Positions 2,777-30,528 of a DNA stretch of 64,000 nt are shown in pieces. The notes beneath the pieces were generated by a model. It saw nothing but the letters and a program-made list of their open reading frames with translations. It searched no databases and had not been told where the DNA came from. The stretch spans positions 62,001 to 126,000 of the forward strand of contig NZ_BDBF01000004.1 of the NCBI RefSeq assembly GCF_001612845.1. The letters are read 5' to 3'. Both the position numbers and the translations under genes were made by a program. How positions within the stretch are numbered: the stretch's first letter is position 1; each line of letters opens with the position of its first letter. The stretch is from Nocardia elegans NBRC 108235. GTDB taxonomy: Bacteria; Actinomycetota; Actinomycetes; Mycobacteriales; Mycobacteriaceae.

Positions 2777-2786
2777 ACCCGGCGCC

Positions 2787-10210: not shown

Positions 10211-12137
10211 CCGGGCGGGCACGAACAGCGGCCGCCCGGAAGCCGCGGCCCACGACGAGGCTGCCGGCGCCGTGGCCCTCCGCGTCGACGCCGATTCCGA
10301 GGCCGACTGGCGGGGCGTGGCCGCCGAGGAAGGGGAGCAGACCGAGGCGGTCAACCTCGCCCTGGCGGCACGGTCGCGCCGCCTGCTGTGGTCGCTGATC
10401 CGCCCCTACCGCCGGTGGGCGGCCGCCGCGCTGGTGTTGATCGTGATCGACAATGCCGCCCTGGTGGCGACGCCGCTGTTCGTCGCACACGGAGTCGACA
10501 CCGGTGTCGCACGCGCGCTCGACGGCGACTGGTTGCCGCTGGCGCTGGCCGTGGGCGGCATCCTCGGCTGCACCGCGCTCGGTGGCGTGACGACCTTCCT
10601 CTTCCTCCGCGTCTCCGGCAGGTTGAGCCAGCAGGTGCTGTTCGATCTGCGGCTACGGGTCTTCACGCACGTGCAGCGGCTCTCGATCGATTTCCACGAG
10701 AACTACACCTCCGGCAAGATCGTCGCGCGGCTCACCAGCGATCTGGAATCGCTCGAGGATCTGCTCGAGCGCGCGCTCAACGACGCGCTGAGCGCCGTGC
10801 TGTCGGTGGTGACGATCGCGGGAATTCTGCTGTGGCTGGATATTCCGCTCGCCGCGGTGGTGCTGCTCGGTTTCGTCCCGCTGGTCTTCGTGACCCGCTG
10901 GGCACAGCGGCGTCAGCGCGCCGGCTACCGCCGCACCCGAGGCGCGATCGCGAAGGTGGTCGTGCATTTCGTCGAGACCATGGGCGGAATCCGTGCGGTG
11001 CAGGCCTTTCGGCGCGAGGAGCGCAACGAGGCCATTCTGGTCGACTCCGATGCCGAGTACCGCTCGGCCAATATCAGTGCGCTGCACGGGATGGCGGCCT
11101 ACATCGGCCTGGTGCGGTTGATCAGCAATGTGACCAACGTCGTCATCCTGGTCGTCGGTGCGTGGCGAGTGATTCACGGCCACACCGAAATCGGTGTGCT
11201 CGCGGCCTTCCTGCTGTACCTGCGGCAGTTCTACGGTCCGTTGGACGAATTGGCCCAGGTGTTCAACTCCTATCAGTCCGCGGCGGCCGCGCTGGAGCGG
11301 ATCTCGGGCGTGCTGGAGGAGCGGCCGAGCGTGGCCGAACCCGATGCCCCGCATCCACTCGCGCGTGCGCGAGGTGAACTGCGCCTGAGCGATGTCGTCT
11401 TCGGCTACCCGAGCCGGGACGACGTGTCCGGCACCGCGGATCGGCCGGTGCGGTCGGTGCTGCCACGCTTCTCGCTCACCGTCGCGGCCGGCCAGGTCGT
11501 CGCGCTGGTCGGTGCCACCGGTGCCGGCAAGTCGACCCTGGCCAAGCTGATCGCGCGGTTCTACGATCCCTCGTCGGGCACGGTGTCGCTGGACGGTATC
11601 GATCTGCGCACGATCGCCGACGCGGATCTGCGCCGCGCGGTCGCGATGGTGACGCAGGAGTCGTACCTGTTCTCCGGTTCGGTCGCCGACAACATCCGGC
11701 TCGGCAGACCCGAGGCCACCGATGCCGAGGTGTTCGCGGCGGCCCGCGCGGTCGGGTTGTACGACTTCGTGATGTCGCTGCCGGACGGATTCGACACCGA
11801 TGTGCGCAAGCGCGGCGGGCGATTGTCGGCCGGCCAGCGCCAGCTCGTCGCCTTCGCGCGCGTCTTTTTGGCCGATCCCGCGGTGATCGTGCTGGACGAG
11901 GCCACCTCGAGCCTGGACATCCCGGGTGAGCGGCAGGTACAGCGGGCGCTCGAGACCGTGCTGCGCGGGCGCACCGCGGTGATCATCGCGCATCGCCTGT
12001 CGACCGTCGCCATCGCCGACCGGGTGCTGGTGATGGATTCCGGGCGCATCGTCGAGGACGGGACGCCCGCGGATCTGATCGCATCGACCGGACGTTTCGC
12101 CGCTCTGCACACCGCGTGGCGCGAATCGCTGGTGTAG
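10164..12137 (+). CDS. ABC exporter half-transporter, second subunit (canonical site)
   Basis: 657 residues. A polar N-terminal extension of ~65 residues precedes the transmembrane domain. The ATPase has Walker A GATGAGKSTL, signature LSAGQRQLVAFARV, Walker B VIVLDEATSSLD with the catalytic Glu, and the H-loop IIAHRLSTV. The start ATG 10164 is set by GGAGGT at 10151-10156 inside the previous gene, so translation is probably coupled. With the 8339-10210 product it should form one heterodimeric exporter in the inner membrane. Confidence 0.92.
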   Translation: MPENPNEDAASRTNTDRAGTNSGRPEAAAHDEAAGAVALRVDADSEADWRGVAAEEGEQTEAVNLALAARSRRLLWSLIRPYRRWAAAALVLIVIDNAALVATPLFVAHGVDTGVARALDGDWLPLALAVGGILGCTALGGVTTFLFLRVSGRLSQQVLFDLRLRVFTHVQRLSIDFHENYTSGKIVARLTSDLESLEDLLERALNDALSAVLSVVTIAGILLWLDIPLAAVVLLGFVPLVFVTRWAQRRQRAGYRRTRGAIAKVVVHFVETMGGIRAVQAFRREERNEAILVDSDAEYRSANISALHGMAAYIGLVRLISNVTNVVILVVGAWRVIHGHTEIGVLAAFLLYLRQFYGPLDELAQVFNSYQSAAAALERISGVLEERPSVAEPDAPHPLARARGELRLSDVVFGYPSRDDVSGTADRPVRSVLPRFSLTVAAGQVVALVGATGAGKSTLAKLIARFYDPSSGTVSLDGIDLRTIADADLRRAVAMVTQESYLFSGSVADNIRLGRPEATDAEVFAAARAVGLYDFVMSLPDGFDTDVRKRGGRLSAGQRQLVAFARVFLADPAVIVLDEATSSLDIPGERQVQRALETVLRGRTAVIIAHRLSTVAIADRVLVMDSGRIVEDGTPADLIASTGRFAALHTAWRESLV

Positions 12138-12201
12138 CGCAGGTGAACAACTCGCGTGCCGCGACCACACCGCAGGCCCGGTTGTCACATACGGTAGAGG
12201 G

Positions 12202-12822
12202 GTGAGTAAGCCAGCCCAGGGCAATTCCGAGACCGCCCAGGCGAGCGAGGCCGCAGCGCCCCGCTGGCCGGCGGTGCTCACCTGGCGCGCGCACGACGGA
12301 TCACGGATGGAATCGGTGCGCGTGGTCCTCACCGGCAACCGGATCCGCGCGTCCGGGCGCATCATCGCCGGCGGCTGCGGTGAACATCCCGCGTTCAGCG
12401 CGTCCTACGACCTCGTCACCGACGAGGTGGGACGCACCAAGCGGCTGTCGCTGCGCAGTACGGTCGCCTCGGGCGAACGCCATGCCTCGATCGCCCGGGA
12501 CGAGGAGAACTACTGGCTCGTCGATGCCGGCGGCACCCACGTGCGGTCCATGTTCGGTGGCGCGCTGGATGTGGATGTGGTGCTGAGCCCGTTCTTCAAC
12601 ACCCTGCCGATTCGCCGTTTCGGGCTGGCGCATGCCACCGAGGACGTGCAGGTTCCGGTGGTCTACGTGCGGGTTCCGGATCTGCTCGTGCAGGAGGCGA
12701 TCCTCACCTACAGCAGCGGCGCCGACGGGATCCACGTGCTCTCGCCGGTGTCGAGCGCGACCGTCACCGTCGACGACGACGGATTCGTCCTCGACTATCC
12801 GGGCCTGGCCGAGCGGGTCTGA
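12202..12822 (+). CDS. Putative glycolipid-binding protein (DUF1089)
   Basis: 206 residues. After a ~25-residue variable leader, the sequence follows the DUF1089 'putative glycolipid-binding' family: LTWRAHDGSRMESVRVVL, then ASGRIIAG, SASYDLVTDE, WLVDAGGTHV, DVDVVLSPFFNTLPIRRFGL and YVRVPDLLVQ. The fold is related to lipoprotein lipid-carrier barrels, but there is no signal peptide here. Function is unproven. GTG 12202 is used. The gene lies 64 bp after the ABC exporter and may be read from the same promoter. Confidence 0.85.
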   Translation: MSKPAQGNSETAQASEAAAPRWPAVLTWRAHDGSRMESVRVVLTGNRIRASGRIIAGGCGEHPAFSASYDLVTDEVGRTKRLSLRSTVASGERHASIARDEENYWLVDAGGTHVRSMFGGALDVDVVLSPFFNTLPIRRFGLAHATEDVQVPVVYVRVPDLLVQEAILTYSSGADGIHVLSPVSSATVTVDDDGFVLDYPGLAERV

Positions 12823-15927: not shown

Positions 15928-16548
15928 TTGAACAAACCGGAGAGTCCGGTCGTGCGGACCGCGACGCGCGACGACATCACCGGAATGGTGCGGGTACTGG
16001 CCGCGGCCTTCGCCCACGACGATCCGATCGAGGAATACGTCTTTCCGGACGAAGCTGTCCGGCACCGTCGGTCGCCGCGCATGTTGCGGACGATGATCAC
16101 GCATCGCTTCCTGCCGGCCGGCGGCGCCGAGGTCGCGGAGCTGGACGGCCGGATCGTCGGCGTCCTGCTCTGGTACCCGGACGGTTACCGGCCCGGCGGG
16201 CTGCGCGAATTCCTCGCCGGCCCGCTGTTTCTCGCGGGAATGGGCACCGCCGTGGGACGGGGAACCGAGGTCGATCGCACCATGGATCGGGCGGCGCCGC
16301 CCGAACCCCACTTCTTCCACGTTTACCTCGGCACCGATCCGGAAATGCAGCGCCGCGGCATCGGCCGGGCGTTGTACGCGTCGTTCACCGACAAGGCCGA
16401 CCGGCAGGGCGTACTCCTGTGCGGAATCTGCAAGGACGAGAACGTCGGGTACTACGAGGCCCTGGGTAACGAACGCACCGGGTCCGTCCGGCTGGGCCGG
16501 ACGGGGCCGGAATTGAACATCATCATTCGCCGACCGCGTCCGCTCTGA
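15928..16548 (+). CDS. GNAT family N-acetyltransferase
   Basis: 206 residues. The fold signature is clear: RTATRDDITGMVRVLAAAF at the start, VYLGTDPEMQRRGIGRALYA as motif A (Q/RxxGxG/A acetyl-CoA loop), then ICKDENVGYYEALGNERTG. The substrate is unknown. It starts at TTG 15928. It lies 119 bp upstream of the PKS on the same strand. If it belongs to that cluster, it could N-acylate the amine predicted from the PKS plus oxoamine synthase; that is speculative. Confidence 0.87.
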   Translation: MNKPESPVVRTATRDDITGMVRVLAAAFAHDDPIEEYVFPDEAVRHRRSPRMLRTMITHRFLPAGGAEVAELDGRIVGVLLWYPDGYRPGGLREFLAGPLFLAGMGTAVGRGTEVDRTMDRAAPPEPHFFHVYLGTDPEMQRRGIGRALYASFTDKADRQGVLLCGICKDENVGYYEALGNERTGSVRLGRTGPELNIIIRRPRPL

Positions 16549-16667: not shown

Positions 16668-19600
16668 GTGTCTGACATTGCCATCGTCGGAATCGGATGC
16701 CGGTATGCCGGCGGCATCGATTCGCCGGAGTCTTTCTGGGACTTCGTGATCAACAAACGGGACGGGGTCACCGAGATCCCCGCCGACCGCTGGGACTGGC
16801 GGCGCTATTACGACGCCGACCGCCGCACCCCGGGCCGTATGTACACCAAGCGCGCCGCCTTCATGACCGGCGATCCGTGGGAGTTCGATCCCGACTTCTT
16901 CGGCATCTCCCCGCGCGAGGCCGCCGCCATGGACCCGCAGCAGCGACTCGTCCTGGAAGTGGTGTGGGAGGCGCTCGACGACGCGGGCGTCGCGGGACGC
17001 AGCGCGGGCTCGGGGCTCGGCGTCTACATCGGCGCCTTCACCCTCGATCAGCTGGCGGTATCGGTCGGCGGACCGGCGCTGCCGCATGTCGACATGCACA
17101 CCGCCGCCGGCGCGTCGTACACGATGCTCTCCAACCGGATCGCCTACGCGCTCAACCTCACCGGTCCGGCGGTTACCGTCGACACCGCCTGTTCCTCGTC
17201 GCTGGTCGCGCTGCATCTGGCCTGCCAGGCCATCGAGAGCGGGGACTGCGAATACGCCCTCGCCGGCGGTGTGACCGTGATGGCGCAGCCGGAGCCGTTC
17301 GTCTCCATGTGCAAGGGCGGATTCCTCGCCGCCGACGGCCGCAGCAAACCGTTCGACGCCGCCGCCGACGGTTACGGCCGCGGTGAGGGCGCCGGCATCG
17401 TGGTGCTGAAGAAGCTGGCCGATGCCGAACGCGACGGCGACCGCATCTACGCGGTCGTCAAGGCCACCGGATCGAATCAGGACGGCCGCACCACGGCCAT
17501 CACCGTCCCGAACGCGGATTCCCAGGAAGCACTGGCCAAGACCGTGATCGAGCGTTCCGGAGTTCCGGCGCACGAGGTCACCTACGTCGAGGCGCACGGC
17601 ACCGGAACGCCGGTGGGCGACCCGCTGGAACTGCGAGCCATCGGCCGGGCCTACGGCACTGCCACCGGGCGGCCCGGTCCGGTCGGTGTCGGCTCGGTGA
17701 AGGCGACGCTGGGGCACACCGAGGCCGCGTCGGGTATCGCGAGTGTCATCAAATCGGCGCTGGCCATCACGCATCGCACCATCGCGCCGCAGGGCTGGCT
17801 GGACACCCCGAATCCCGATATCCCGTTCGAGGAACTGGGAATCCGCCTGCAGACCGAGGCCGAACCGGTCGGCCCCGAGGTCGAGCGGATGACGGTGGCC
17901 GTCAACGGTTTCGGATACGGCGGCACCAATGCGCACGCGATTCTGCAGGAGTACCGGGGCGGGTCCGAAAACGACCGGGCGCCACAGCATTTCGGCGTCC
18001 TGCCGCTCTCCGCGCGGAGCGAGACCGCGGTTCGGCAATTGGCTCGCGGCGTCGCCGAACTGATCGCCGAGGGCGCCGATCCCGGCCGGCTGGCAGAAGC
18101 CGCGTGGCGGCGCCGCCACCACCACAACCATCGCGCCGCGATCACTTTCGGCGACGACACCGAACTGGTCCGCGGCCTGGTGGATCTGGCGAGCGGGGAG
18201 GGCCGGGTCGGTCGCACCGTCGCCAAGCGCACCGCCGAGCCGGTGTACGTCTTCACCGGTATGGGTCCGCAGTGGTGGGGCATGGCACGCGAGCTGCTCA
18301 GTTCCGAAGGCCCGTTCGCCGACGAGGCGCGCCGCATCGATGCCGTGTTCACCGACATCGCCGGCTGGTCCGTCGTCGAGGAGTTGCTGCGGCCCGAGGA
18401 GGAGTCGCGGGTCACCTCGACCGCCATCGCGCAACCGGCGAACTTCCTGGTGCAGGTCGCGCTGTACGCGGCGTTGCGGGAGTACGGAATCGAACCCGCC
18501 GTCGTCGTCGGCCACAGCGTCGGCGAGGTATCGGCCGCCTATGTGACCGGAATGTTGTCGCTCCACGACGCGCTGCTGGTCAGCTATCACCGCGCCCGGT
18601 TGCAGGCCACGACGGCCGGGACGGGTGGCATGCTGGCGATCGGATTGCCGGCCGAGGCCGCTCGCGAGGTCATCGCCGCCGACAGTTCGGTCGATATCGC
18701 GGCGATCAACTCACCCTCGGCCGTCACGCTGGCCGGTGCGGTCGACCGTCTCGACGAGATCGCCGAAAAGCTCATCGCCGACGGCATTTTCGCACGCCGG
18801 CTGCAGGTCGAGGTGCCGTACCACAGTCATCTGATGGACCCGATCCTGGATGAACTGCGCGCGGTGCTGGCCGGGCTCACCGTCGCCGAACCGCGTATCC
18901 CGCTGTACTCCACGGTCACCGGCGAACAGGTCACCGCGGCCGACTGGAATGCCGAGTACTGGTGTGCCAACGTCCGGCAACCGGTGCGGTTCGCCGATGC
19001 CGTCACCGCGCTGGTCCGGGCCGGCAACCGGGTGTTCGTCGAGGTCGGTCCGCATCCGGTACTCGGCGCCAACATTCGCGAAATCCTCATCGGCGCAGGC
19101 GAAACCGGTACGACGGTGGCCACCCTGCACCGCAAACAGCAGGACGCGGACAGCCTGCGCCAGACCCTGTCGGGTCTGTACGCGGCCGGAGTTCTCGACA
19201 TCGACGCGCTGTTCGCGGGCGTGCCGGACCCGACGCCGCATATCGATCTGCCGCGCTATCCGTGGCAGCGCACCCGGCTGCGCAACGAACTGCCCGAATT
19301 CCGGCTGCTGCGGCACGGCACGCCCGACGCGCATCCGATGCTCGGTGATCAGAATCCCGACGACTCCAACGCCTGGCGGGTGGAACTGTCGCTCGCCGCG
19401 CTGCCCTGGCTGGCCGATCACGTCGTGGGCGGCACCCGGATCCTGCCGGGCGCGGGATATCTGGATGCCGCGCTGAGCGCCGCCGCGGTCCGCACAGAAT
19501 CGGATCAGGTCGCCGTGGAGGGCGTGCGGTTCGTCGCGCCCCTGGTCGTCGAGGAGGGCGAGGCGCCGATCGTCGAACTCCACGTGGAGGATTCGACCGG

Positions 19601-22600
19601 GCGCTTCACCATCCGCTCCCGGGGTGCGGCCGGGACCATCTGGACCGTTCACGCGATGGGCCGCCTGGTCGAAGGCAGCTACGCGCCGATCACCGCGGAC
19701 GTGCCCGATACCGAGCAGATGCTCGCGGTCGAGCCCGCCGAGTTCTACGCCGGATTGGCCGCGCGCGGACTGGAATACGGGCCGGCCTTCCAGCGCGCCA
19801 CTTCGATCCGCATCTCGCCGGACACCGTGGTCGCGCGACTCGACGGCGCCATCGGCCAGGGCGAGAGGTATCTCGCGCATCCCGCGATCGTCGATGCGGC
19901 GCTGCAGAGTGTGGCCGCCCTGCTCGCCGGCCGCGGTGGTGCCCAGGAGGGCGCGATGGTGCCGGTCGGCGTGCGCACCGTCCGCCGCCTCGCGCCCCTG
20001 CCGGAGGAGGTCACGGCCGTGGCCCGGTTCACCGAGGGCGACCGGCCGCTGGCCGATATCGATCTGCTCGATGCCGAGCGCACCGTGGTCATGCAGATCA
20101 GGGGGATGGAATTCGGTTCCCTGACCCCCGGCCGCGGCCCGCTGCAGCGCATGACCGACATGTTCTACGAGGAACGGTGGGAGCTGCGCGATCCGGTCGA
20201 CACATCCGCGCTTCCCGGCAACGACGGCCTGTACACCCTGGTCCTCGGCTACGGCGAGAACATCGACTCGCGGATCGAGCGGGTGCGCGATGCCGTCGCG
20301 GGCGGTGCCGGATCGGAAGTCCTCCGCCTCGATCCCAGCGACGCCGAGCTGGAACCGGAACTGGCACAACGGCTTCGCGACATCTTCGGCACCGAGGGTG
20401 TGCAACGGCTGCACGTATGCGTGGTCCCCGGACATTCGCCCGACGGTGATGTGGCGGCGCTGTGGACGCTGCGCCGGATCGCGGTGACGCTGGACGGTTA
20501 CCTCGAGGAACGGGTCACCGAGCACGAGATCGAAATTCCGCTTACCGGCGACGGATCGATATACGTGACCGTGGTCAGCGCCCACGCGTATGCCCACCCC
20601 GCGGATGTGACGGCACCGGACCCCAGCCAGGCGGCCATCGCCGGTGCACGTCGGGTGCTGCTCAACGAGCAGTCCCGGCTGCGGTGGCGACTGGTGGATA
20701 TCGATGCCGACACAACGGTCGCGGACCTGTCCGCCGAACTGGCGATCCCCGGCGGCTTCCAGTACGACCTGGTCGACGAGGCTGTCCTGCGCAACGGCCT
20801 GCGCTGGACCACGGTCGTGACCCGGACGCTGCCGGAGCGGCTCGACGCCCTCGACACCGCCGAACCGCTCACCGATCCCGAGGCCAATTTCGAACTGGAA
20901 CTACCTCGTTCGCGCACCTTCGCGCGGCTGGGCTGGCGGCGCTGCGATCGGCGCGAACCCGGCCCGGGTGAGGTCGAGGTCCGGATGCGTGCGGTGGGCC
21001 TCAACTACAAGGACGCGCTGAAGGTGATCGGCGTCCTCGGCGAACGCGAACTGTCGAAGACCTTCTTCGGCTTGGTGCCGGGTATGGAAGGTGGCGGCGA
21101 GGTGGTCCGGGTCGGCCCCGGCGTCACCGACTACGCGGTCGGCGACGCGGTGAGCCTGACCTCCAAGGGCATGGTCGCGCGCTATCACACCACGTCGACC
21201 GATTCGCTCACCCACGTGCATCCCGACACCGATGCCGGCCGGTGCAGCAGCGTTACCGCGTTCACCACCGCCGAGTACTCGTTGCTCGAACTGGCACGGA
21301 TCCGTGCCGGTGAGACCGTGCTGGTGCACGGTGCGGCGGGCGGTGTCGGCAGCGCGGCGGTACAGATCGCGAAGTTGCACGGCGCCACCGTGATCGGCAC
21401 CGCGAGCAGCGAACAGCGACGCGCCTATGTCCTGGCCGAGGGCGCCGATCACGTGGTCGGCTCGCGGTCGCTGAACTTCGTCGACGAGGTACTCGCCCTT
21501 ACCGGCGGACGCGGTGTGGACGTGATCATCAGCTCGGCGCCCGGTGAGATCCTGCGCCAGAACTTCGCGGTGATCGCCGAATTCGGCCGCATCGTGGAGA
21601 TCGGCAAGGCCGACATCTACACCGGCGGCATGCTGGATCTGTCGGCGTTCGACAAGAATGTCTCCTACTTTTCCTTCGATCTGGACCGGATGCTGCGGTT
21701 GCGGCACACCGAGGTGATGGAGCTGGGCCGCAAGGTCAACGCCAGCTTCGACGACGGCACCTATCGGCCGCTGCCGTTCCAGAAGTACGGCACGGCGGAG
21801 GTGGCCCAGGCCTTCGAGGAGGTGGCCCGCTCGACCCGGATCGGCCGGGTCGCGCTGGATCTGACCGAGGAAGCACCGCTGGTCCGCCCGCAGCTGCCGG
21901 ACATCGAGATCGACCCGGCGGCGCAATACCTGATCACCGGTGGTTTCGGCGCCTTCGGCCTGGCCACCGGACGGTGGCTGGTGGGCCACGGCGCCCGCCG
22001 GCTGACCCTGCTCGGCCGCGGCGGTGCCACCACCGAGGCCGCCGTCGCGCAGCTCGCCGCCTGGGAGGCGCAGGGCATCGAGGTCACCGTCGAGCGGGTC
22101 GACATCACCGATGCCGATGCCGTCGCGGCGGTCGTCGCTCGCGCCCACCGGCCCGAACATCCGCTGCGCGGGGTGTTCCACACAGCCGGCGCCATCGACG
22201 ACAAGCGCATCACCGTCATGGATGCCGAGAGTCTGGCCAAGGTGTTCCGCGCGAAGGCCGACGGTGCGCGCGCACTCGTCGCCGGCATCCAGGCGGCCGG
22301 GGCGCGACTGGACCAGTTCGCGCTGTGGTCCTCCGGCAGTGCGATGTTCGGCGGTGTCGGCCAATACGCCTATACCGCGGCCAATATCGCGCTCCAGGCC
22401 ATCGGGGATACGGTGGTCCGCGCGGGCGGTACCGCCCTGGTCGTCGGCTGGGGGCATATGTCCGGCGGCGGTATGGCCGACGACGAACACATCGCGCGGT
22501 ATCTGCGCAACACCGGCTTCGATTCGATCACCATGGACGAGGGGACCGAATATCTGGAGCAGGCGCTGCGATTGGGCGTCACGCAGGTCTCGATCATTCC

Positions 22601-22994
22601 GGTCGACTGGGCCAAGGTGAACGCCACCGCGCCGTTCTTCGCCCAGACCGGACGCACCAAGGAGCTGATCGCCGCTGCGGCACAGGATGATTCGGCCGCC
22701 GCGCGGCTGCGCGTTCAGCTCGCCGAACTCGACGAGGGTAAGCGCAACGAGGTGGTCGCCTTCATGCTGGCCGAGCAACTCGCGCAGGTCATGGGCGTTT
22801 CGGCGGATTCGATCGACCTGACGGTTCCGGTGCCCGAACTCGGATTGGACTCGTTGATGGCGGTCGAATTCGGCGCCCTGGTGACGAAATCGCTGGGCGT
22901 GGAACTGATGTCGATGAAGATGGGCCGCTCGTTCAGCCTCGAACAGGCGGGTGCGCGGGTGGCCGAGGCGATCGTGCAGGGGGCGGCGGGATGA
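16668..22994 (+). CDS. Type I polyketide synthase, KS-AT-DH-ER-KR-ACP
   Basis: 2108 residues. KS spans ~1-425, with Cys175 in VDTACSSS and the two His in EAHGTGTP and GHTEAASG. AT spans ~525-830, with Ser617 in GHSVGEVS and a YHSH block near 717. DH spans ~875-1150, with HVVGGTRILP (His918) and Asp1076 in HPAIVDAALQ. A structural region ~1165-1400 follows. ER spans ~1415-1735 (HGAAGGVGSAAVQ near 1552). KR spans ~1750-2000 (TGGFGAFG near 1756, Tyr1902 in YTAAN). ACP Ser2062 is in LGLDSL. All domains look active, giving a fully reduced chain. There is no thioesterase, reductase or methyltransferase domain. GTG 16668 has GAGGAG six bases upstream. The next gene, an alpha-oxoamine synthase 40 bp downstream, is a likely chain-release enzyme. 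AT specificity (malonyl or methylmalonyl) is not clear. Confidence 0.96.
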   Translation: MSDIAIVGIGCRYAGGIDSPESFWDFVINKRDGVTEIPADRWDWRRYYDADRRTPGRMYTKRAAFMTGDPWEFDPDFFGISPREAAAMDPQQRLVLEVVWEALDDAGVAGRSAGSGLGVYIGAFTLDQLAVSVGGPALPHVDMHTAAGASYTMLSNRIAYALNLTGPAVTVDTACSSSLVALHLACQAIESGDCEYALAGGVTVMAQPEPFVSMCKGGFLAADGRSKPFDAAADGYGRGEGAGIVVLKKLADAERDGDRIYAVVKATGSNQDGRTTAITVPNADSQEALAKTVIERSGVPAHEVTYVEAHGTGTPVGDPLELRAIGRAYGTATGRPGPVGVGSVKATLGHTEAASGIASVIKSALAITHRTIAPQGWLDTPNPDIPFEELGIRLQTEAEPVGPEVERMTVAVNGFGYGGTNAHAILQEYRGGSENDRAPQHFGVLPLSARSETAVRQLARGVAELIAEGADPGRLAEAAWRRRHHHNHRAAITFGDDTELVRGLVDLASGEGRVGRTVAKRTAEPVYVFTGMGPQWWGMARELLSSEGPFADEARRIDAVFTDIAGWSVVEELLRPEEESRVTSTAIAQPANFLVQVALYAALREYGIEPAVVVGHSVGEVSAAYVTGMLSLHDALLVSYHRARLQATTAGTGGMLAIGLPAEAAREVIAADSSVDIAAINSPSAVTLAGAVDRLDEIAEKLIADGIFARRLQVEVPYHSHLMDPILDELRAVLAGLTVAEPRIPLYSTVTGEQVTAADWNAEYWCANVRQPVRFADAVTALVRAGNRVFVEVGPHPVLGANIREILIGAGETGTTVATLHRKQQDADSLRQTLSGLYAAGVLDIDALFAGVPDPTPHIDLPRYPWQRTRLRNELPEFRLLRHGTPDAHPMLGDQNPDDSNAWRVELSLAALPWLADHVVGGTRILPGAGYLDAALSAAAVRTESDQVAVEGVRFVAPLVVEEGEAPIVELHVEDSTGRFTIRSRGAAGTIWTVHAMGRLVEGSYAPITADVPDTEQMLAVEPAEFYAGLAARGLEYGPAFQRATSIRISPDTVVARLDGAIGQGERYLAHPAIVDAALQSVAALLAGRGGAQEGAMVPVGVRTVRRLAPLPEEVTAVARFTEGDRPLADIDLLDAERTVVMQIRGMEFGSLTPGRGPLQRMTDMFYEERWELRDPVDTSALPGNDGLYTLVLGYGENIDSRIERVRDAVAGGAGSEVLRLDPSDAELEPELAQRLRDIFGTEGVQRLHVCVVPGHSPDGDVAALWTLRRIAVTLDGYLEERVTEHEIEIPLTGDGSIYVTVVSAHAYAHPADVTAPDPSQAAIAGARRVLLNEQSRLRWRLVDIDADTTVADLSAELAIPGGFQYDLVDEAVLRNGLRWTTVVTRTLPERLDALDTAEPLTDPEANFELELPRSRTFARLGWRRCDRREPGPGEVEVRMRAVGLNYKDALKVIGVLGERELSKTFFGLVPGMEGGGEVVRVGPGVTDYAVGDAVSLTSKGMVARYHTTSTDSLTHVHPDTDAGRCSSVTAFTTAEYSLLELARIRAGETVLVHGAAGGVGSAAVQIAKLHGATVIGTASSEQRRAYVLAEGADHVVGSRSLNFVDEVLALTGGRGVDVIISSAPGEILRQNFAVIAEFGRIVEIGKADIYTGGMLDLSAFDKNVSYFSFDLDRMLRLRHTEVMELGRKVNASFDDGTYRPLPFQKYGTAEVAQAFEEVARSTRIGRVALDLTEEAPLVRPQLPDIEIDPAAQYLITGGFGAFGLATGRWLVGHGARRLTLLGRGGATTEAAVAQLAAWEAQGIEVTVERVDITDADAVAAVVARAHRPEHPLRGVFHTAGAIDDKRITVMDAESLAKVFRAKADGARALVAGIQAAGARLDQFALWSSGSAMFGGVGQYAYTAANIALQAIGDTVVRAGGTALVVGWGHMSGGGMADDEHIARYLRNTGFDSITMDEGTEYLEQALRLGVTQVSIIPVDWAKVNATAPFFAQTGRTKELIAAAAQDDSAAARLRVQLAELDEGKRNEVVAFMLAEQLAQVMGVSADSIDLTVPVPELGLDSLMAVEFGALVTKSLGVELMSMKMGRSFSLEQAGARVAEAIVQGAAG

Positions 22995-23034
22995 GAAGGC
23001 CGCAGCTGCCTGCTGCGCCGGGAAAGGATGCGGG

Positions 23035-24432
23035 ATGAGTGAGTCGGCGCGGGATCTGGCGCGGAAGTTGTTGTCCGGAACGGCATCTGGTGCCTCCCCG
23101 GCGGCCGCACCCACCGCTGCGACGTCCGGTAGCTCGCGCGGTGCGTTCACCGGCGGCCACAGTAAACCGGCCCGCCCGCGCCGGGGTCCCGGACGCCAAT
23201 TCGCCGACCACCCCGAGGTCGCGGCGATGGTGCAGAAACGCGCGGCGATCGCGGCAGTGCACGAGCACAGCGGCACGCCGAATCCGATGTTCCTCGTGCG
23301 GGAGAGCCCGAACGACACCGTCATCCGGTGGCAGGGCCGGGATCTGGTGAATTTCAGCGCCTACAACTATCTCGGCCTGGGCAACCATCCGAAGGTGGTG
23401 CAGGCCGCCAAGGACGCGCTGGACACCTACGGCGCGTCCGCCTCGGCCAGCCGCATCGTCGCCGGGGAGATCCCGATCTACGCCGAACTCGAACAGCGCC
23501 TGGCGGCGATGTACGACGTCGGCGACGCGATGGTCACCACCAGTGGTTATCTCACCAATGCCGGGGTGATCGGCTTCCTGCTGGGCGCAGACGACGTCGC
23601 GATCTGCGATTCGCTCATCCACGGCAGCGTGGTCTCCGGGGTGCAGTGGTCGGGAGCGCGGCGGCTCAACTTCCGCCACAACGATCCGGAGTCGCTGCGT
23701 TCGGTGTTGCGCATGTCGCGCGGGAACTTCGATCGGGCGCTGGTCGTGGTCGAAGGGCATTACAGCATGGACGGCACGGTCGGCCGGGTGAGCGAAATAG
23801 CCTCCATCGCAAGGGAATTCGACTGCGCGGTCATGGTCGACGAGGCGCATTCGCTCGGCGTCTTCGGCGAACGCGGCCACGGCATCCGCGAGCACTACGG
23901 CATGGCAGGCGACGATGTCGACATCTGGATGGGCACCCTGTCGAAGGCGTTGGGCAGCTGCGGCGGTTTCATCGCCGCCGACGCGGACCTGATCGCCGCG
24001 ATGAAGGCCGCCGCACCGGGTGTGGCCATGCTGACCGGCGGCCCGGCGCCCTCGACCATCGGCGCCGCGCTGGCCGCACTCGACGTCCTCGAGGCGGAAC
24101 CGCAGCGACTGCGCCGGCTGTGGTCCAACGCCGAGCACTTCCGCACCCTGCTCGGCGAGCGCGGCATCGACCTCGGCATCTCCGAAGGCACCCCGATCTG
24201 CCCGGTCATCGTCCCCGGTGAACTGCGCGCCGGCTACGTCGCCACCACACTGCTGCAGAACGGCGTCTACGCGGGCGCGATCTCCTCTCCGGCGGTACCG
24301 GCGGGTCAGGAACGACTGCGCTTCTTCCTGACCTCCGAACACGAACCGGCGCAACTGGAGGCCGCCGCCGATCTGCTGTCCGAGGCCGTCACCGCCGCCG
24401 CGCAGTTGCCGGACCTGGGCGTCACCGGCTGA
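23035..24432 (+). CDS. PLP-dependent alpha-oxoamine synthase (AONS/SPT-like)
   Basis: 465 residues. Family enzymes join an acyl thioester to an amino acid with loss of CO2, giving a 2-amino ketone. A low-complexity Ala/Ser/Pro leader (~1-60) precedes the fold-type I core: NFSAYNYLGLGNHP, YGASASASRIVAGE, the His of SLIHGSVVSG, GHYSMDGTVG, VDEAHSLGVFGERGHG, and the PLP Lys304 in TLSKALGSCGG. ATG 23035 has AAAGGA upstream and lies 40 bp after the PKS stop, so the two form an operon. No biotin genes are nearby, which argues against BioF. The pairing suggests that it offloads the PKS chain from the ACP, as Fum8 does for fumonisin or the oxoamine synthase domain of SxtA for saxitoxin. The amino acid used is unknown. 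Confidence 0.93.
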   Translation: MSESARDLARKLLSGTASGASPAAAPTAATSGSSRGAFTGGHSKPARPRRGPGRQFADHPEVAAMVQKRAAIAAVHEHSGTPNPMFLVRESPNDTVIRWQGRDLVNFSAYNYLGLGNHPKVVQAAKDALDTYGASASASRIVAGEIPIYAELEQRLAAMYDVGDAMVTTSGYLTNAGVIGFLLGADDVAICDSLIHGSVVSGVQWSGARRLNFRHNDPESLRSVLRMSRGNFDRALVVVEGHYSMDGTVGRVSEIASIAREFDCAVMVDEAHSLGVFGERGHGIREHYGMAGDDVDIWMGTLSKALGSCGGFIAADADLIAAMKAAAPGVAMLTGGPAPSTIGAALAALDVLEAEPQRLRRLWSNAEHFRTLLGERGIDLGISEGTPICPVIVPGELRAGYVATTLLQNGVYAGAISSPAVPAGQERLRFFLTSEHEPAQLEAAADLLSEAVTAAAQLPDLGVTG

Positions 24433-24490: not shown

Positions 24491-24619
24491 CGGGCGGTTC
24501 GGAAGGTTCCGACGGGTGGCGCAGCCGGCGGTCTCGTGGCTGGAGGCCGAGCGTGGGCAGGCTCCGGAGCCCGGGCGTGCCGGTGAATCGGCATGTCGCG
24601 GCCCGGTACGTTGGTGCTC

Positions 24620-25555
24620 GTGGAACTACGAATCTTCACCGAGCCCCAGCAAGGGGCTACCTACGACGATCTGCTCCGGGTTGCGAAGGTGACCGAGGAG
24701 ACGGGGTTCGACGCATTCTTCCGGTCGGATCACTATCTGAAGATGGGCGGGGTCTCCGGCCTGCCCGGGCCCACCGACGCGTGGATCACGCTGGCCGGGC
24801 TCGCGCGCGAGACCTCCCGGATCCGCCTGGGCACATTGGTCACCGCCGCGACATTCCGGCATCCGTCGGTGCTGGCGATCTCGGTCGCGCAGGTCGACCA
24901 GATGTCGGGCGGCCGGGTCGAACTCGGACTCGGTTCGGGGTGGTTCGCCGATGAGCATCGCGCCTACGGCATCGATCTGCCAGAGCTCGGCGAGCGCTTC
25001 GACCGCTACGCCGAGCAACTGGCCGTCATCACCGGCCTGTGGCAGACCCCGGTGGGCGAGACCTTCGATTTCACGGGCAAACACTATGTGCTGCAGGGCA
25101 GTCCGGCACTGCCGAAGCCGGTGCAGCAGCCCGGCCCGCCCGTGATCATCGGTGGCGCGGGCAAGAAGCGCACACCGGCCCTGGCCGCGCGGTACGCCCA
25201 CGAGTTCAATCTGCCGTTCACGGATGCGGAAACGGCTGCGGCGCAATTCGATCGGGTTGCCGCGGCCGCGCGCGACATCGGCCGCGATCCCGGTGAGATC
25301 GTCCGCTCGGCCGCCCAGGTGCTGTGCGTGGGCCGCGACGAGGCCGAGATCGCCCGCCGCGCCGCGGCGATCGGCCGCGAGGTGGACGAACTGCGCACCA
25401 ACGGCCTGGCAGGCACCCCGGCCGAGGTGGTCGACAAGATCGGCCGCTACCGCGAGACCACCGGCATCACCCGCCTCTACCTGCAGGTCTTGGATCTGTC
25501 CGACCTCGACCACGTGGAATTGGTCGCCGGCGAGGTCGCCGCCCAGCTGGGCTGA
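24620..25555 (+). CDS. LLM class F420-dependent oxidoreductase
   Basis: 311 residues, a luciferase-like TIM barrel. The blocks ELRIFTEPQQGATYDDLL, GFDAFFRSDHYLKMGG, TSRIRLGTLVTAATFRHP, GGRVELGLGSGWFADEH and PPVIIGGAGKKRTPALAARYA are those of actinobacterial F420-type members. The substrate is unknown. I chose GTG 24620 because close homologues begin at (M)ELRIFTEPQQG; two or three upstream starts are possible. A terminator lies between it and the PKS operon, so it is probably an independent gene. Confidence 0.9.
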   Translation: MELRIFTEPQQGATYDDLLRVAKVTEETGFDAFFRSDHYLKMGGVSGLPGPTDAWITLAGLARETSRIRLGTLVTAATFRHPSVLAISVAQVDQMSGGRVELGLGSGWFADEHRAYGIDLPELGERFDRYAEQLAVITGLWQTPVGETFDFTGKHYVLQGSPALPKPVQQPGPPVIIGGAGKKRTPALAARYAHEFNLPFTDAETAAAQFDRVAAAARDIGRDPGEIVRSAAQVLCVGRDEAEIARRAAAIGREVDELRTNGLAGTPAEVVDKIGRYRETTGITRLYLQVLDLSDLDHVELVAGEVAAQLG

Positions 25556-25577: not shown

Positions 25578-27887
25578 TCAGCCGACCTTCACCGGACTCC
25601 TGGGCTCGTCCGGATTGTCGACGTGGAGCTCGTGCAACCGCGCACCCTCCACGTCGATATCCGGCACGATCCGGCTGAGCCATCCCGGAATCCACCAGGC
25701 CGCCTTACCCATCAGCACCAGCAGCGACGGGATCAGGACCATCCGCACCAGGAAGGCGTCGAACAGGACGCCCGCGGCGAGCGCGAAACCCATCGATTTG
25801 GCGGTCGCATCCGATTCCAGCAGGAACGAACCGAAGACCGAGATCATGATGACGGCGGCCGAGGTCACCACGCGTGCGCCGTGGTGGTAGCCGGAGATCA
25901 TCGCCTCGGTGGGTGGTTTCCCGTGCACGTATTCCTCGCGCATGCGGGTGACGAGGAAGACCTGGTAGTCCATGGCGAGGCCGAAGACCAAGCCGATCAA
26001 CATGATCGGCAGGAAGCTCACGATCGGCCGGGGTTCGGAAATGAGGCCGAGGGCGCCCTTCTGGAAGATCAGCACGGTGGCGCCGAACGTCGCCGCCATG
26101 GAGAGCAGGAATCCCAGTGCGGCGGTGAAAGGCACCAGCAGCGAACGGAACACCGCGATCAGCAACAGGAATGCCGCACCCGCCACGATGGCCAGATAGG
26201 GCAGGATCTTGCTGAGCAGCGCATGGTCGACATCGGCGTAAATGGCTGTGGTGCCGGTGATTCCGTAGTCGATGCCGTATCTGTCGTGCAGTGCGGCTTC
26301 GGCATTGCGCGCGTTGCGCACCAGATCCTTGGTGGCCTGATCGTTGGGCCCGGTGGCGGGTACCGCGGTCATCAACGCGCCGCCGCCGTCCCTGCTCAGC
26401 TGCGGTCGGGTCACATAGTCCATACCCGGATACGCGGCCAGTTCGTCGTGTAGCGCGGTCAGCGCCGCCTGCCGCTGATCGGCGGGCACCTGCGACAGAT
26501 CGGCGACGACTTGCAGCTTGCCGTTACTGCCGGCACCGAATCCCTCGGTGCGCAGGTCGTAGGCCTTGCGAATGGTGGTGGTCCTGGGCTGGCTGTCCTC
26601 ACCGGGCAGGCCCAGATTCAAGCTCAGCGCGGGCGCGGCCAGCAGACCCAGCACGATGATGCTCGCGATCAGCGTCAGCCACGGCATCTGCCCGATCACC
26701 CGCGCCACCCGCATACCGTTGGTGACCACCGAATCGTCCTCGGGATCGTGTTGCGCGATCACCGGCAGCTTCGGCTCGAACAGATACTTGCCGAAGGCGC
26801 CGAGCAGTGCCGGCATCAGGGTGATGGCGGTGAGCACCGCGAACGCCGCCGCGATCGCCCCGCCCAGCCCCATGAAGGTCAGGAAGCGGATGTTGACGAT
26901 GGCCAGGGCGACGAGCGCGATAATCACCGTCGCGCCCGCGAACACGACCGCCGAACCGGCCGTCCCCAGGGCCGTGCCCGCGGCGATCTCCGGCGAATTC
27001 TGCACCGCGCGTTCGTGTTTGTAGCGCGAGACGATGAACAGCGCGTAGTCGATCGAGAGCGCGATGCCGATCATCGAGGCCAGGAAGGTGGTGAAGCTCG
27101 GTACCGACATGAACGATGTGCCGAGGAAGATCACCGACGTCGCCAGTCCGAGTCCGACGATCGCGGTGATGATCGGCACGAAGGCGGCCACGATCGCGCC
27201 GAAGGCCACCACCATCACCACCAGCGCCACGGCCATGCCGATCATCTCGGCCCGACCACTGGGCTGTTGTTGTTCCATCGCCAGCGACCCGCTCATCTCC
27301 ACCTGAAGTCCGGCGGCCCGCGCCTCGTCACCGACCGCGTAGGCGGCCGCGCGATCGGCGGCGGTGATATCGGTGAACTTCTGGATCGTGAACGGAACGG
27401 TCAGCACCGCAACGGTATCGGGGTTCTCCTTGTTCAACACGTTGACCGGCGCGGCACTGCAGCGCGAGACGAATTCCGGCGAACTGCGATCGGTCGCGAA
27501 GCAGCCCATCTGTTCGGTGGCGGTGATCGGATCCACCAGCGGGGTCTTGTGATCGACGATGTTCAGATCGTTCAGCTTCGAAACCACACCACCGACGGCC
27601 GCGCGCTGGGATGCGTCGGTGAGTTTCTGCCCCGGTGCCGCCCCGAAGACATAGGTGCCGGTGACCGCCTCGAAACTGAACGCCTGCGACATCCCCGGGA
27701 AGTGTTTGTCCATGATCTCGGTGGCGCGTTCCGACGGCAGATTCGGGATCGTGAAGTCGTCGTTCATCGGCTTCTTCAACTGCGTGCCGAGACTGCCGAT
27801 GATCAGGAACAGGATCAGCCAGACCGGGAGCACGATCCACTTGTGCCGAAAGGCGAACCTTCCCCACCGATACAGATACACGGACAC
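25578..27887 (-). CDS. MMPL family RND transporter (copy 1)
   Basis: 769 residues. The layout is that of MmpL: an N-terminal helix (KWIVLPVWLILFLIIGSLG), an extracytoplasmic loop, a five-helix block containing IGIALSIDYALFIVSRYKHE, a second loop (LPGEDSQPRTTTIRKAYDL), and a last block with MDYQVFLVTRMREEYVHGK. The Asp-Tyr pairs in both blocks are the proton-relay signature. These proteins export lipids or siderophores, and the cargo is unknown. GTG 27887 has AGGAG upstream. It is paralogous, in the same orientation, to the gene at 28144-30528. It converges on the oxidoreductase with a 22-bp gap. Confidence 0.94.
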   Translation of the reverse strand: MSVYLYRWGRFAFRHKWIVLPVWLILFLIIGSLGTQLKKPMNDDFTIPNLPSERATEIMDKHFPGMSQAFSFEAVTGTYVFGAAPGQKLTDASQRAAVGGVVSKLNDLNIVDHKTPLVDPITATEQMGCFATDRSSPEFVSRCSAAPVNVLNKENPDTVAVLTVPFTIQKFTDITAADRAAAYAVGDEARAAGLQVEMSGSLAMEQQQPSGRAEMIGMAVALVVMVVAFGAIVAAFVPIITAIVGLGLATSVIFLGTSFMSVPSFTTFLASMIGIALSIDYALFIVSRYKHERAVQNSPEIAAGTALGTAGSAVVFAGATVIIALVALAIVNIRFLTFMGLGGAIAAAFAVLTAITLMPALLGAFGKYLFEPKLPVIAQHDPEDDSVVTNGMRVARVIGQMPWLTLIASIIVLGLLAAPALSLNLGLPGEDSQPRTTTIRKAYDLRTEGFGAGSNGKLQVVADLSQVPADQRQAALTALHDELAAYPGMDYVTRPQLSRDGGGALMTAVPATGPNDQATKDLVRNARNAEAALHDRYGIDYGITGTTAIYADVDHALLSKILPYLAIVAGAAFLLLIAVFRSLLVPFTAALGFLLSMAATFGATVLIFQKGALGLISEPRPIVSFLPIMLIGLVFGLAMDYQVFLVTRMREEYVHGKPPTEAMISGYHHGARVVTSAAVIMISVFGSFLLESDATAKSMGFALAAGVLFDAFLVRMVLIPSLLVLMGKAAWWIPGWLSRIVPDIDVEGARLHELHVDNPDEPRSPVKVG

Positions 27888-28143: not shown

Positions 28144-30528
28144 TCAGCCGACCGGGACCGGCTCCTTCTCCGCCGCCGCGGTGTCGCGGTCACGCTGCTG
28201 CAGCTCGCGCAGCTTGGTGCCCTCGACATCGATATCGGGCAGGATCCGGTCCAGCCACTTCGGCATCCACCAGGCCCATTCGCCCAGCAGCACCAGCAGC
28301 GACGGGATCAGCACCATCCGGACCAGGAAGGCGTCGAACAGCACGCCGGCCGCCAGCGCGAAGCCCATCGACTTGGCGGTCACATCGGACTCCAACATGA
28401 ATCCGCCGAAGACCGAGATCATGATGATGGCCGCGGAGGTGACCACGCGAGCACCGTGGTGATAACCGGATACCATGGCCTCCTTCGGGGATTTGCCATG
28501 CACGTATTCCTCTCGCATCCGCGTCACCAGGAACACCTGGTAGTCCATCGCGAGACCGAATACCAAGCCGATCAACATGATCGGCAGGAAGCTCACTATC
28601 GGATGCTGATCGCCGATCAGGCCGAGTTTGTCCTGCTGGAAGATCAGCACCGTGGCGCCGAAGGTGGCCGCCATCGACAACAGGAATCCCAATGCGGCGG
28701 TCAGCGGCACCAGAACCGAGCGGAACACGAGCGCCAGCAGGATGAACGCCGCGATCGCCACGATCGTCATGTACGGGACGATCTTGCCGAGCAGGGCGTT
28801 GGACACATCGGCGTAGATCGCGGTCGAGCCGGTGATGCCGTACTCCATGCCATATTTCGCTTGCAGGTCCGACTCCGCGTCCCGGGCATGTTTCACCAGG
28901 TCCTGGGTTTCGGAGTTGTTCGGGCCGTGATCGGGCACCGCGGTCAACTGGGCGCCGGTGCTGTTCACATAGTCCGGAGTCTTCTGCGGCGTGAGCTTGT
29001 TCGTCGACGGCATGGTCACGAAGTCCATGCCCTGGTAGCCGGCCAGCTTGTCGTGCAGGGCCATGACGGCCTCCTGACGCTGCTCCGGCTTGACCTTGGT
29101 CAGATCCGCGACCACCAGCAGGGTGCCGTTGCTGCCCTCGCCGAACCCTTCGGTACGCAGGTCGTAGGCCTTACGAACCGTGGTGGTCTTGGGCTGGCTG
29201 TCCTCGCCGGGGAGGCCGAGGCTCAGATTCACCGCGGGTGCGGCGAGCAGGCCGAGCACGATCACGCTCGCGCCGAGGGTCACCCACGGCGCCTTGGCGA
29301 TCAGTTGGGCGAAACGCTTGCCGTTGGTGACGGCGTTGTCGTCCTCGGTATCGGTGCGCGCGACCAGCGGCAGCTTCGGCTTGAACAGGAAGCGGCCGAA
29401 GGCGCCCATCATCGCGGGCAGCAGGGTCAGCGCGACCAGGATCGCGAACAGCGCGGCCAGCGCGCCACCCAGACCCATCCAGGTGAGGAAGCTGACGCCG
29501 ACGATGCTGAGGCCACACAGCGCGATGATGACCGTCATACCGGCGAAGACCACCGCGGAACCGGCGGTGCCGATGGCGACGCCCGCAGCCTCTTCCGGCG
29601 AATCCTGCACGGCGAGTTCATGTTTGTAGCGCGAGACGATGAACAGCGCGTAGTCGATCGACAGCGCGATACCGATCATCGCCGCCAGCACGGTGGTGAA
29701 GTTCGGGATGTTGGCGATCGAGGTGCCGGCCATGATCAGCGAGGACGCCATGCCGACACCCACGATGCCGGTCAGAATCGGCACGAACGCCGCGATCAGC
29801 GCGCCGAAGGCGATCATCATCACGATGAAGGCGACGGCGTAACCGATCATTTCCGACTGTCCACCCGGCGGCGCCTGCTCGGTGGCGATGGTGCCGCTGA
29901 TTTCCACATCCAGTCCGGCCGCGCGCGCTTCATCGGCGACCTTGTAGGCCTGGTCCCGATCGGCCTTGGTGATATCGGAGAACGACTTTATCTTGAACGG
30001 CACGCTGAAGTAGGCGACGGTATCGGCATTGTTGTTCTTGCCGAGCACGTTCAGCGGCGCCAGACCACATTTCGCGACGAAGTTCGGGTCGGTGCGATCA
30101 CCGGAGGTGCAGCCGATCGCCGTCGTCGCGGCGACCGGATCGGTCAGCACGCCCCGACGTTGCGGGTCGGGGTCCTGCGCATTGATCTTGGACTTGTCGA
30201 CGATGTCGAGGTTGTTGATCTTCTCGACAAGCGCGCTGAGCGCCTTGTGATTGTCCGGATCGGTGAGCTTGCCGTGGGTTGCCGCGGCGACATAAGTGCC
30301 GGTCACCGCGTCGAATTTGAAGGCTGCCGATTGTCCAGGAAATTCCCTGTCCAGGATGTCGGTGGCCTTCTGCGAGGGCAGATCGGGCATGTTGAAGTCG
30401 TCCTGGCTCTGCTTCTTCAGCCCGACGCCGACGGCGCCCACGATCACGAAGATCAGCAACCAGACCGGTAGCACGATCCATTTTCGGCGGAAGGCGAACT
30501 TCCCCCACCGATAGAGGTACACGGACAC
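28144..30528 (-). CDS. MMPL family RND transporter (copy 2)
   Basis: 794 residues, very similar to copy 1 through the membrane blocks (IGIALSIDYALFIVSRYKHE and MDYQVFLVTRMREEYVHGKS are shared) and more divergent in the loops. This copy has insertions in the second loop (STNKLTPQKTPDYVNSTGAQ) and a longer C-terminal tail. The GTG start at 30528 has AGGAG nine bases upstream. A perfect palindromic operator lies ~105 bp upstream, and a TetR gene is divergent, so this copy is probably the one that regulator controls. Tandem duplication with loop divergence suggests different cargo. Confidence 0.94.
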   Translation of the reverse strand: MSVYLYRWGKFAFRRKWIVLPVWLLIFVIVGAVGVGLKKQSQDDFNMPDLPSQKATDILDREFPGQSAAFKFDAVTGTYVAAATHGKLTDPDNHKALSALVEKINNLDIVDKSKINAQDPDPQRRGVLTDPVAATTAIGCTSGDRTDPNFVAKCGLAPLNVLGKNNNADTVAYFSVPFKIKSFSDITKADRDQAYKVADEARAAGLDVEISGTIATEQAPPGGQSEMIGYAVAFIVMMIAFGALIAAFVPILTGIVGVGMASSLIMAGTSIANIPNFTTVLAAMIGIALSIDYALFIVSRYKHELAVQDSPEEAAGVAIGTAGSAVVFAGMTVIIALCGLSIVGVSFLTWMGLGGALAALFAILVALTLLPAMMGAFGRFLFKPKLPLVARTDTEDDNAVTNGKRFAQLIAKAPWVTLGASVIVLGLLAAPAVNLSLGLPGEDSQPKTTTVRKAYDLRTEGFGEGSNGTLLVVADLTKVKPEQRQEAVMALHDKLAGYQGMDFVTMPSTNKLTPQKTPDYVNSTGAQLTAVPDHGPNNSETQDLVKHARDAESDLQAKYGMEYGITGSTAIYADVSNALLGKIVPYMTIVAIAAFILLALVFRSVLVPLTAALGFLLSMAATFGATVLIFQQDKLGLIGDQHPIVSFLPIMLIGLVFGLAMDYQVFLVTRMREEYVHGKSPKEAMVSGYHHGARVVTSAAIIMISVFGGFMLESDVTAKSMGFALAAGVLFDAFLVRMVLIPSLLVLLGEWAWWMPKWLDRILPDIDVEGTKLRELQQRDRDTAAAEKEPVPVG

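Follow-up and report, generated by a model that had tools for sequence, protein, structure and literature searches.

The 64,000-nucleotide stretch of Nocardia elegans NBRC 108235 DNA analyzed here (contig NZ_BDBF01000004.1, positions 62,001 to 126,000; genome size 7.5 Mb), hereafter referred to as the window, carries on its forward strand a GNAT N-acetyltransferase-like gene, a gene for a reducing type I polyketide synthase (PKS) that lacks a release domain, and a gene for an alpha-oxoamine synthase (AOS). Our comparative analyses suggest that these genes probably specify an actinobacterial version of the SgaAB-type pathway, in which a PKS chain would be released by the AOS, acetylated by the GNAT and exported by an MmpL transporter. 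Among bacteria, this route has so far been demonstrated in one Pseudomonas strain, P. fluorescens MYb115, where the two-gene PKS-AOS cluster PfSgaAB makes C24, C26 and C28 sphinganines (PMC12134224, 2025). The first-pass annotation of the window had proposed the release step and knew of no described product for such a pair, a statement that PfSgaAB overturns for bacteria. New in the present study are the GNAT-PKS-AOS cassette, the mutual exclusion of the GNAT and a short-chain dehydrogenase/reductase (SDR), a conserved helix at the N-terminus of the AOS, and the prediction of a malonyl-type acyltransferase in the PKS.

A reducing PKS without a release domain

The PKS gene (16668..22994, + strand) starts with GTG and encodes 2108 amino acids. 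Its domains, as delimited by Pfam and motifs, are a ketosynthase (KS, residues 2-375; approximately 16671..17957), an acyltransferase (AT, 526-834; 18243..19169), a dehydratase (DH, 889-1154; 19332..20129), an enoyl reductase (ER, about 1432-1730; approximately 20925..21860), a ketoreductase (KR, 1752-1932; 21921..22463) and an acyl carrier protein (ACP, 2034-2082; 22767..22913). The chain ends at residue 2108, 26 residues beyond the ACP, and Pfam found no thioesterase, reductase or condensation domain 3' of the ACP. The catalytic motifs are intact, and the same set was seen in the PKSs of relatives: DTACSSS at residue 172, EAHGTGT at 308 and GHTEAASG at 349 in the KS, GHSVGE at 615 in the AT, HVVGGTRILP at 918 and DAALQ at 1076 in the DH, GAAGGVG at 1555 in the ER, GGFGAFG at 1758, SSGS at 1888 and YTAAN in the KR, and GLDS at 2059 in the ACP. 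As DH, ER and KR are all intact, full reduction of the chain is expected; the chain length is not readable from the PKS sequence.

Over its whole length, the PKS resembles mycocerosic acid synthase (MAS; 9d2y, 883 bits), while its score against the MAS/Pks2 profile NF041183 (1080 bits) stays below the cut-off of 2400. The AT tetrad VPYH (18813-18824) together with GHSVGE was present in the alignment in all 22 actinobacterial PKSs read, whereas MAS has VASH and GHSMGE, so that the methylmalonyl-type motif is absent from the window PKS; the three proteobacterial PKSs read have YAFH or YPFH. One row of this alignment, an unrelated large open reading frame of locus L063 that had been included by its length, was disregarded. 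A bulky aromatic residue in the AT tetrad is associated with malonyl-CoA. Thus, a straight chain is predicted and malonyl-CoA is the likely extender unit; going by this motif, a branched, methylmalonyl-derived chain of the MAS type is less likely.

The adjacent AOS and its family

The AOS gene (23035..24432, + strand) begins 40 bp 3' of the PKS stop and encodes 465 amino acids with a Pfam Aminotran_1_2 domain, the pyridoxal phosphate (PLP) lysine 304 (23944-23946) within TLSKALG, and a DEAHSLG motif. The codon-position GC pattern is gene-like in both the PKS and the AOS frames. The anatomy described in the first-pass annotation, namely the PKS domain order with intact motifs and no release domain, and the AOS 40 bp further on with Lys304, was confirmed in these points. 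The AOS is 93-97% identical to homologues of Nocardia nova, N. aobensis, N. mikamii, N. africana, N. kruczakiae and a few more, which places the strain in the N. nova group.

Curated profiles did not assign the AOS to any of the classical families: it scored 316 bits against the BioF profile TIGR00858 (cut-off 426), 300, 298 and 264 bits against the KBL profiles (cut-offs 460, 535 and 493), and 306, 282 and 223 bits against those of serine palmitoyltransferase (SPT; cut-offs 640, 500 and 670). In the tree, it stood apart from the BioF rows, with the KBL rows forming a separate clade, and it shared a clade with the PKS-paired AOSs of Pseudomonas (support 100/100) while forming a sub-clade of its own (100/99); the Pseudomonas loci were taken as SgaAB kin, as the tree was drawn without the MYb115 SgaB and without SxtA-type, Fum8-type and ALAS sequences. 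By this placement, the AOS is a member of a well-supported clade of mostly PKS-paired AOSs. Identity as BioF or KBL was rejected by the profile cut-offs and the tree, and canonical SPT membership by the SPT cut-offs, although a likeness to SPT was retained. In its BioF and KBL part, the family tree called for in the first-pass annotation did not give the placement that this annotation had named as refuting. The match to SphA (9pep) reached 75 bits only. On a Streptomyces plasmid (locus L073), a 1345-residue protein annotated as SDR plus PLP enzyme lies close 3' of a ketosynthase-bearing protein; in the tree, the AOS end of this 1345-residue protein falls immediately outside the PKS-paired AOSs.

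The N-terminal leader of the AOS

The first-pass annotation had noted a disordered AOS leader. The disorder is real, and a helix that precedes it had been missed. AlphaFold gave pLDDT below 50 for residues 15-43 (23077..23163, + strand), a confident core after residue 43, and a helix at residues 5-14 (23047..23076, + strand) with low confidence (block pLDDT about 50). In an alignment of 50 AOSs with 46-94% identity, drawn from the longer ones among the 120 matches listed, Ala9 and Leu13 never vary, and Arg6 and Leu12 hardly do; residues 1-15 show a majority fraction of 0.69 and gaps of 0.00, compared with 0.24 and 0.24 for residues 16-52. Of the 110 AOSs of at least 430 residues, 99 carry within residues 1-30 a loose helix pattern that was composed after inspection of the sequences (0.21 in shuffled sequences). 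A stricter pattern was found in 69 of 112 AOSs, six proteins without the core pattern having been excluded, and in no shuffles, no catalytic parts and none of seven reference AOSs. Such an arrangement, with a conserved helix followed by a variable linker, has the layout of a docking element, and it is reasonably likely, as judged from the sequences, that this helix docks the AOS on the PKS.

The GNAT-PKS-AOS cassette in Nocardia and the wider family

Among 118 Nocardia genomes, 40 AOS matches of at least 65% identity were found, with the PKS directly upstream in 36 and the GNAT present in 34. Of the four without a PKS, one shows a PKS piece running to the contig end, and the other three consist of incomplete AOS genes at contig ends. 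Within the window lineage, the PKS lies 5' of the AOS in 33 of 35 loci, and the remaining two start at contig ends. Viewed from the PKS (ER-KR-ACP part), the AOS follows downstream in 36 of 38 matches of at least 62% and in 5/5 at 60-61%. A second Nocardia lineage (AOS identity 55-61%) has both PKS and GNAT in 7/7. The pairing posited in the first-pass annotation is thus widespread among close AOS matches, while its description as a two-gene operon has to be given up, since the GNAT is part of the unit in most Nocardia.

The GNAT-like gene (15928..16548, + strand) ends 119 bp 5' of the PKS and encodes 206 amino acids from this start, although the true start may lie further in; Pfam Acetyltransf_1 matches it at 29 bits. 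GNAT matches are followed by the PKS in 36 of 37 cases at 50% identity or more, in 7/9 at 44-49% and in 0/6 at 36-39%.

In the wider family, the AOS was detected at E 1e-105 or better in 46 of 401 genomes, 14 of them outside Nocardia, all of which were read. Eleven of these loci have the order PKS-AOS-MmpL-GNAT, two have MmpL-PKS-AOS-GNAT, and one has PKS and AOS alone; in the 13 loci with GNAT and MmpL, these genes are always on one strand. Two of the genomes match named Rhodococcus proteins (P0104 and P0118). A KASIII gene lies on the opposite strand between AOS and MmpL in three of the PKS-AOS-MmpL-GNAT loci annotated there. As the set stays together despite changed gene order, GNAT, PKS and AOS, joined by MmpL in Rhodococcus, likely form one cassette serving one pathway.

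Several other arrangements were observed. In two second-lineage loci (L063 and L066), a cytochrome P450 gene directly precedes the GNAT in the same orientation, which suggests that the product is hydroxylated. Other Nocardia loci (L059, L060 and L061) encode a single-chain KS-AT-ACP-AOS protein of 1464-1537 residues (Pfam domains determined on L060), and 34 of the 118 genomes contain a frame of this KS-AT-ACP-AOS size with an AOS match not exceeding 42%. In L060, an AMP-ligase, FAAL-like by its DIP2-type C-terminal domain, lies upstream of the fusion, and a thioesterase and an MmpL lie downstream. A Shinella plasmid (L072) carries a PKS-AOS-SDR-methyltransferase set within a capsule export cluster, which perhaps makes a PKS-derived sphingoid anchor for a surface polysaccharide.

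GNAT and SDR as proposed alternative finishing enzymes

The best solved relative of the GNAT is puromycin N-acetyltransferase (56 bits over residues 6-203, a whole-length similarity), which is also the sole structural match of a Rhodococcus copy, to which no Pfam family was assigned. The amine acetylated in puromycin adjoins a carbonyl, as does the amine of a 2-amino ketone, and acetylation would prevent 2-amino ketones from dimerizing to pyrazines. By this analogy, it is reasonably probable that the GNAT N-acylates the amine of the pathway product, with acetyl as the presumed group.

A third Nocardia lineage (AOS identity 47-53%; SAAAVR where the window AOS has SASASR) was read in all 26 loci (L121-L146). 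The GNAT is present in 0/26, the PKS in 25/26 and an SDR, about 4-5 kb 3' of the AOS, in 24/26. In the PKS-less locus the AOS starts at base 44 of the contig; of the two SDR-less loci, one contig ends 3 kb 3' of the AOS and the other (G116 C3) forms a separate tree branch. Among solved relatives of the SDR, a general SDR ranks first (92 bits) and the 3-ketodihydrosphingosine reductase TSC10 second (80 bits); several close relatives are named 3-dehydrosphinganine reductase in their source annotation, and the curated NCBIfam models made no call on it. In one locus of this type (L056), an FG-GAP/UnbV-ASPIC protein and an RnfD-like membrane protein are encoded between AOS and SDR. Within the GNAT lineage, N. 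puris (L049) is the one window-lineage genome with an SDR instead of the GNAT; it is of the same sort and lies directly 5' of the PKS, divergently, at 2248-3249.

Across 80 actinobacterial loci (35 of the window lineage, 5 of the second lineage, 14 of the wider family and 26 of the third lineage), 49 have the GNAT alone, 25 the SDR alone, six neither and none both, at 70 as well as at 100 bits. Three of the six with neither are cut by contig ends; the 49 include a displaced GNAT fragment (L021) and a locus that also has a weak general SDR (L010, 75 bits). No KDSR-like SDR was found among the ten annotated window neighbours or, at 100 bits, in the 49 GNAT-bearing loci. Fisher's exact test gives p = 2e-15, which should not be taken at face value as loci within a lineage are non-independent; by eye, about two GNAT/SDR exchanges on the tree would suffice. 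In these loci the two enzymes do not occur together, and the simplest reading is that both act on the same 2-amino-3-ketone, with the GNAT acylating its amine and the SDR reducing its ketone.

Proposed pathway and alternative explanations

In the proposed pathway, malonyl-CoA would supply the units from which the PKS assembles a straight and fully reduced chain on its own ACP. The AOS, which its N-terminal helix probably tethers to the PKS, would then release this chain through a decarboxylative condensation with an amino acid. Release by the AOS is very likely: the anatomy of the two proteins, the position of the AOS outside BioF and KBL, and the pairing all support this step, as foreseen in the first-pass annotation. 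With L-serine, the somewhat favored amino acid, condensation would yield a long-chain 2-amino-3-ketone, which the GNAT would N-acetylate, while in the sister (third) lineage the 3-ketosphinganine-reductase-like SDR would reduce the same intermediate instead. Judging from the gene content, the most likely product is an N-acetylated long-chain 2-amino-3-ketone, and transport of the lipid to the cell envelope would fall to MmpL, a step suggested mainly by Rhodococcus, whose cassette includes an MmpL.

Several findings on related PKSs weigh against a strict pairing of PKS and AOS. The same genome contains a sister PKS (L118; contig C35, 72000-90809), 61% identical over 2107 residues, without AOS or GNAT. 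Among the PKS matches listed at 54-59% identity, 81 of 83 lack an AOS (paired in 2/47 at 57-59% and 0/36 at 54-56%), so that for the sister PKS the absence of pairing which the first-pass annotation had named as refuting was indeed observed. L118 is neighboured by a condensation-domain protein, an MFS transporter and a divergent MmpL with 38% identity to that of Rhodococcus; in the three AOS-less loci read, a condensation-domain protein stands beside the PKS in two (L118 and L120) and an AMP-ligase in L119. These sister PKSs have the same AT motif as the window PKS. In a quick KS-AT tree they fall on the window side, where they form an open trifurcation together with N. puris and the remaining PKSs, and in a quick ER-KR tree they group with N. 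puris (support 99). Lacking a root, these trees do not separate AOS gain from AOS loss; the pattern fits an exchange of release partner between AOS and condensation-domain protein.

The AOS-less clusters also lend some weight to the view that the AOS works on acyl-CoA and that the PKS product leaves through another acyltransferase, and PfSgaB does accept acyl-CoA (PMC12134224). Nevertheless, we consider this very unlikely, as the annotated window neighbours include no other release gene within the cassette, PKS and AOS are adjacent in every lineage read, KS-AT-ACP-AOS fusions occur within the genus, and the AOS helix is conserved. An alternative hypothesis is that the cassette makes a diffusible small molecule, either an alpha-amino ketone signal or a compound of the pyrazine or pyrrole type, with the GNAT serving for self-protection in the manner of puromycin N-acetyltransferase. 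AOSs such as CqsA make signals, and the GNAT does resemble a resistance enzyme; however, CqsA is a weak match (93 bits), and the whole-length MAS-like PKS, the MmpL in 13 of 14 Rhodococcus-type loci and the sister-lineage SDR point to a long-chain lipid, which makes a diffusible product quite unlikely.

If the AOS used alanine or glycine, the same release would give 1-deoxy-type 2-amino ketones without the hydroxymethyl group, again acetylated by the GNAT. The separate sub-clade of the window AOS, its 45% identity to Sga-like AOSs with an altered loop, and a fold to which KBL and ThAOS are nearly as close as SPT leave room for this outcome. It is rather unlikely, however, as the SxSASR motif is common to the window AOS and Sga-like AOSs, with V at that place in KBL and ThAOS, and the sister lineage has a 3-ketosphinganine-reductase-like SDR.

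Returning to serine-dependent release with acetylation, a broader picture may be put forward tentatively. Nocardia and Rhodococcus may make undescribed envelope lipids based on N-acetylated 3-keto-sphinganine-like bases, with the AOS as a detachable, helix-docking release module on a mycocerosic-type PKS. In the course of evolution, AOS and condensation-domain protein would have replaced one another as release partner, and GNAT and ketosphinganine reductase as finishing enzyme, so that sister Nocardia lineages would make an acetylated ketone or a sphinganine, respectively.

Neighbouring genes and transporters

Downstream of the AOS, the window encodes an F420-dependent LLM-class oxidoreductase, a possible accessory enzyme (24593..25555, + strand), and two MmpL-family transporters (25578..27887 and 28144..30528, both - strand). 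All three are neighbours in the N. nova clade only; as high identity was seen in just 8 of the 35 Nocardia loci, they were rejected as genus-wide core parts. The N. africana locus has one MmpL, and locus L012 a distant one. Export of the product by MmpL is an evenly balanced proposition for the window and a more probable one for Rhodococcus. Elsewhere in the window (8339-12822), two overlapping MsbA-like ABC exporter half-transporters are followed by a glycolipid-binding family protein (12202-12822).

Implications and comparison with known systems

Sphingolipid bases have been thought confined to a few bacterial phyla (PMC12134224). If the proposed pathway is correct, a dedicated route to sphingoid-like envelope lipids exists in many Nocardia species, including clinical ones, and in many Rhodococcus, and it would go unnoticed in searches for canonical SPT. 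Nocardia would then represent a natural experiment that can be tested gene by gene, with release and finishing enzymes interchangeable around a single PKS lineage, and the AOS helix would be a candidate for a short element that may guide a free-standing release enzyme to its PKS. A title search of the open-licence literature found no account of this Nocardia pathway, which does not imply its absence from print.

The AOS releases the PKS chain in the fungal and cyanobacterial PKS-AOS systems (Fum8, AAL toxin, SphA and SxtA), and the window system would share this logic; of these, the sequence comparison covered SphA. The likeness to MAS and MAS-like PKSs extends to the whole-length domain order and to MmpL transporters nearby, whereas the malonyl-predicting AT motif, the AOS partner and a score below the Pks2 cut-off set the window PKS apart. 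Unlike the SPT of Sphingobacterium multivorum (3a2b), the AOS stays below the SPT cut-offs, occupies another place in the tree, carries a helix and linker and has a PKS partner; unlike puromycin N-acetyltransferase, the window GNAT is linked to a lipid-type PKS.

The closest parallel is PfSgaABC, comprising the iterative PKS PfSgaA, the AOS PfSgaB with SPT activity and the KDSR-like SDR SgaC; deletion of either PfSgaA or PfSgaB abolishes the sphinganine products, PfSgaB catalyses the condensation of acyl-CoA with L-serine but barely accepts alanine or glycine, and the authors counted 6101 homologous clusters in nr, foremost in Burkholderia, with Nocardia receiving no mention in the main text (PMC12134224). 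Like PfSgaAB, the window has an adjacent reducing PKS without a release domain and an AOS, the latter in one highly supported clade with the Pseudomonas AOSs taken as SgaAB kin, and the sister Nocardia lineage adds a KDSR-like SDR, as in PfSgaABC. In contrast, the window AOS has about 45% identity to the Sga-like AOSs, a sub-clade of its own and a different N-terminal helix, the window PKS is MAS-like with 2108 residues compared with about 2500 in PfSgaA, and a GNAT takes the place of the SDR in the window lineage, with an MmpL added in the Rhodococcus cassette.

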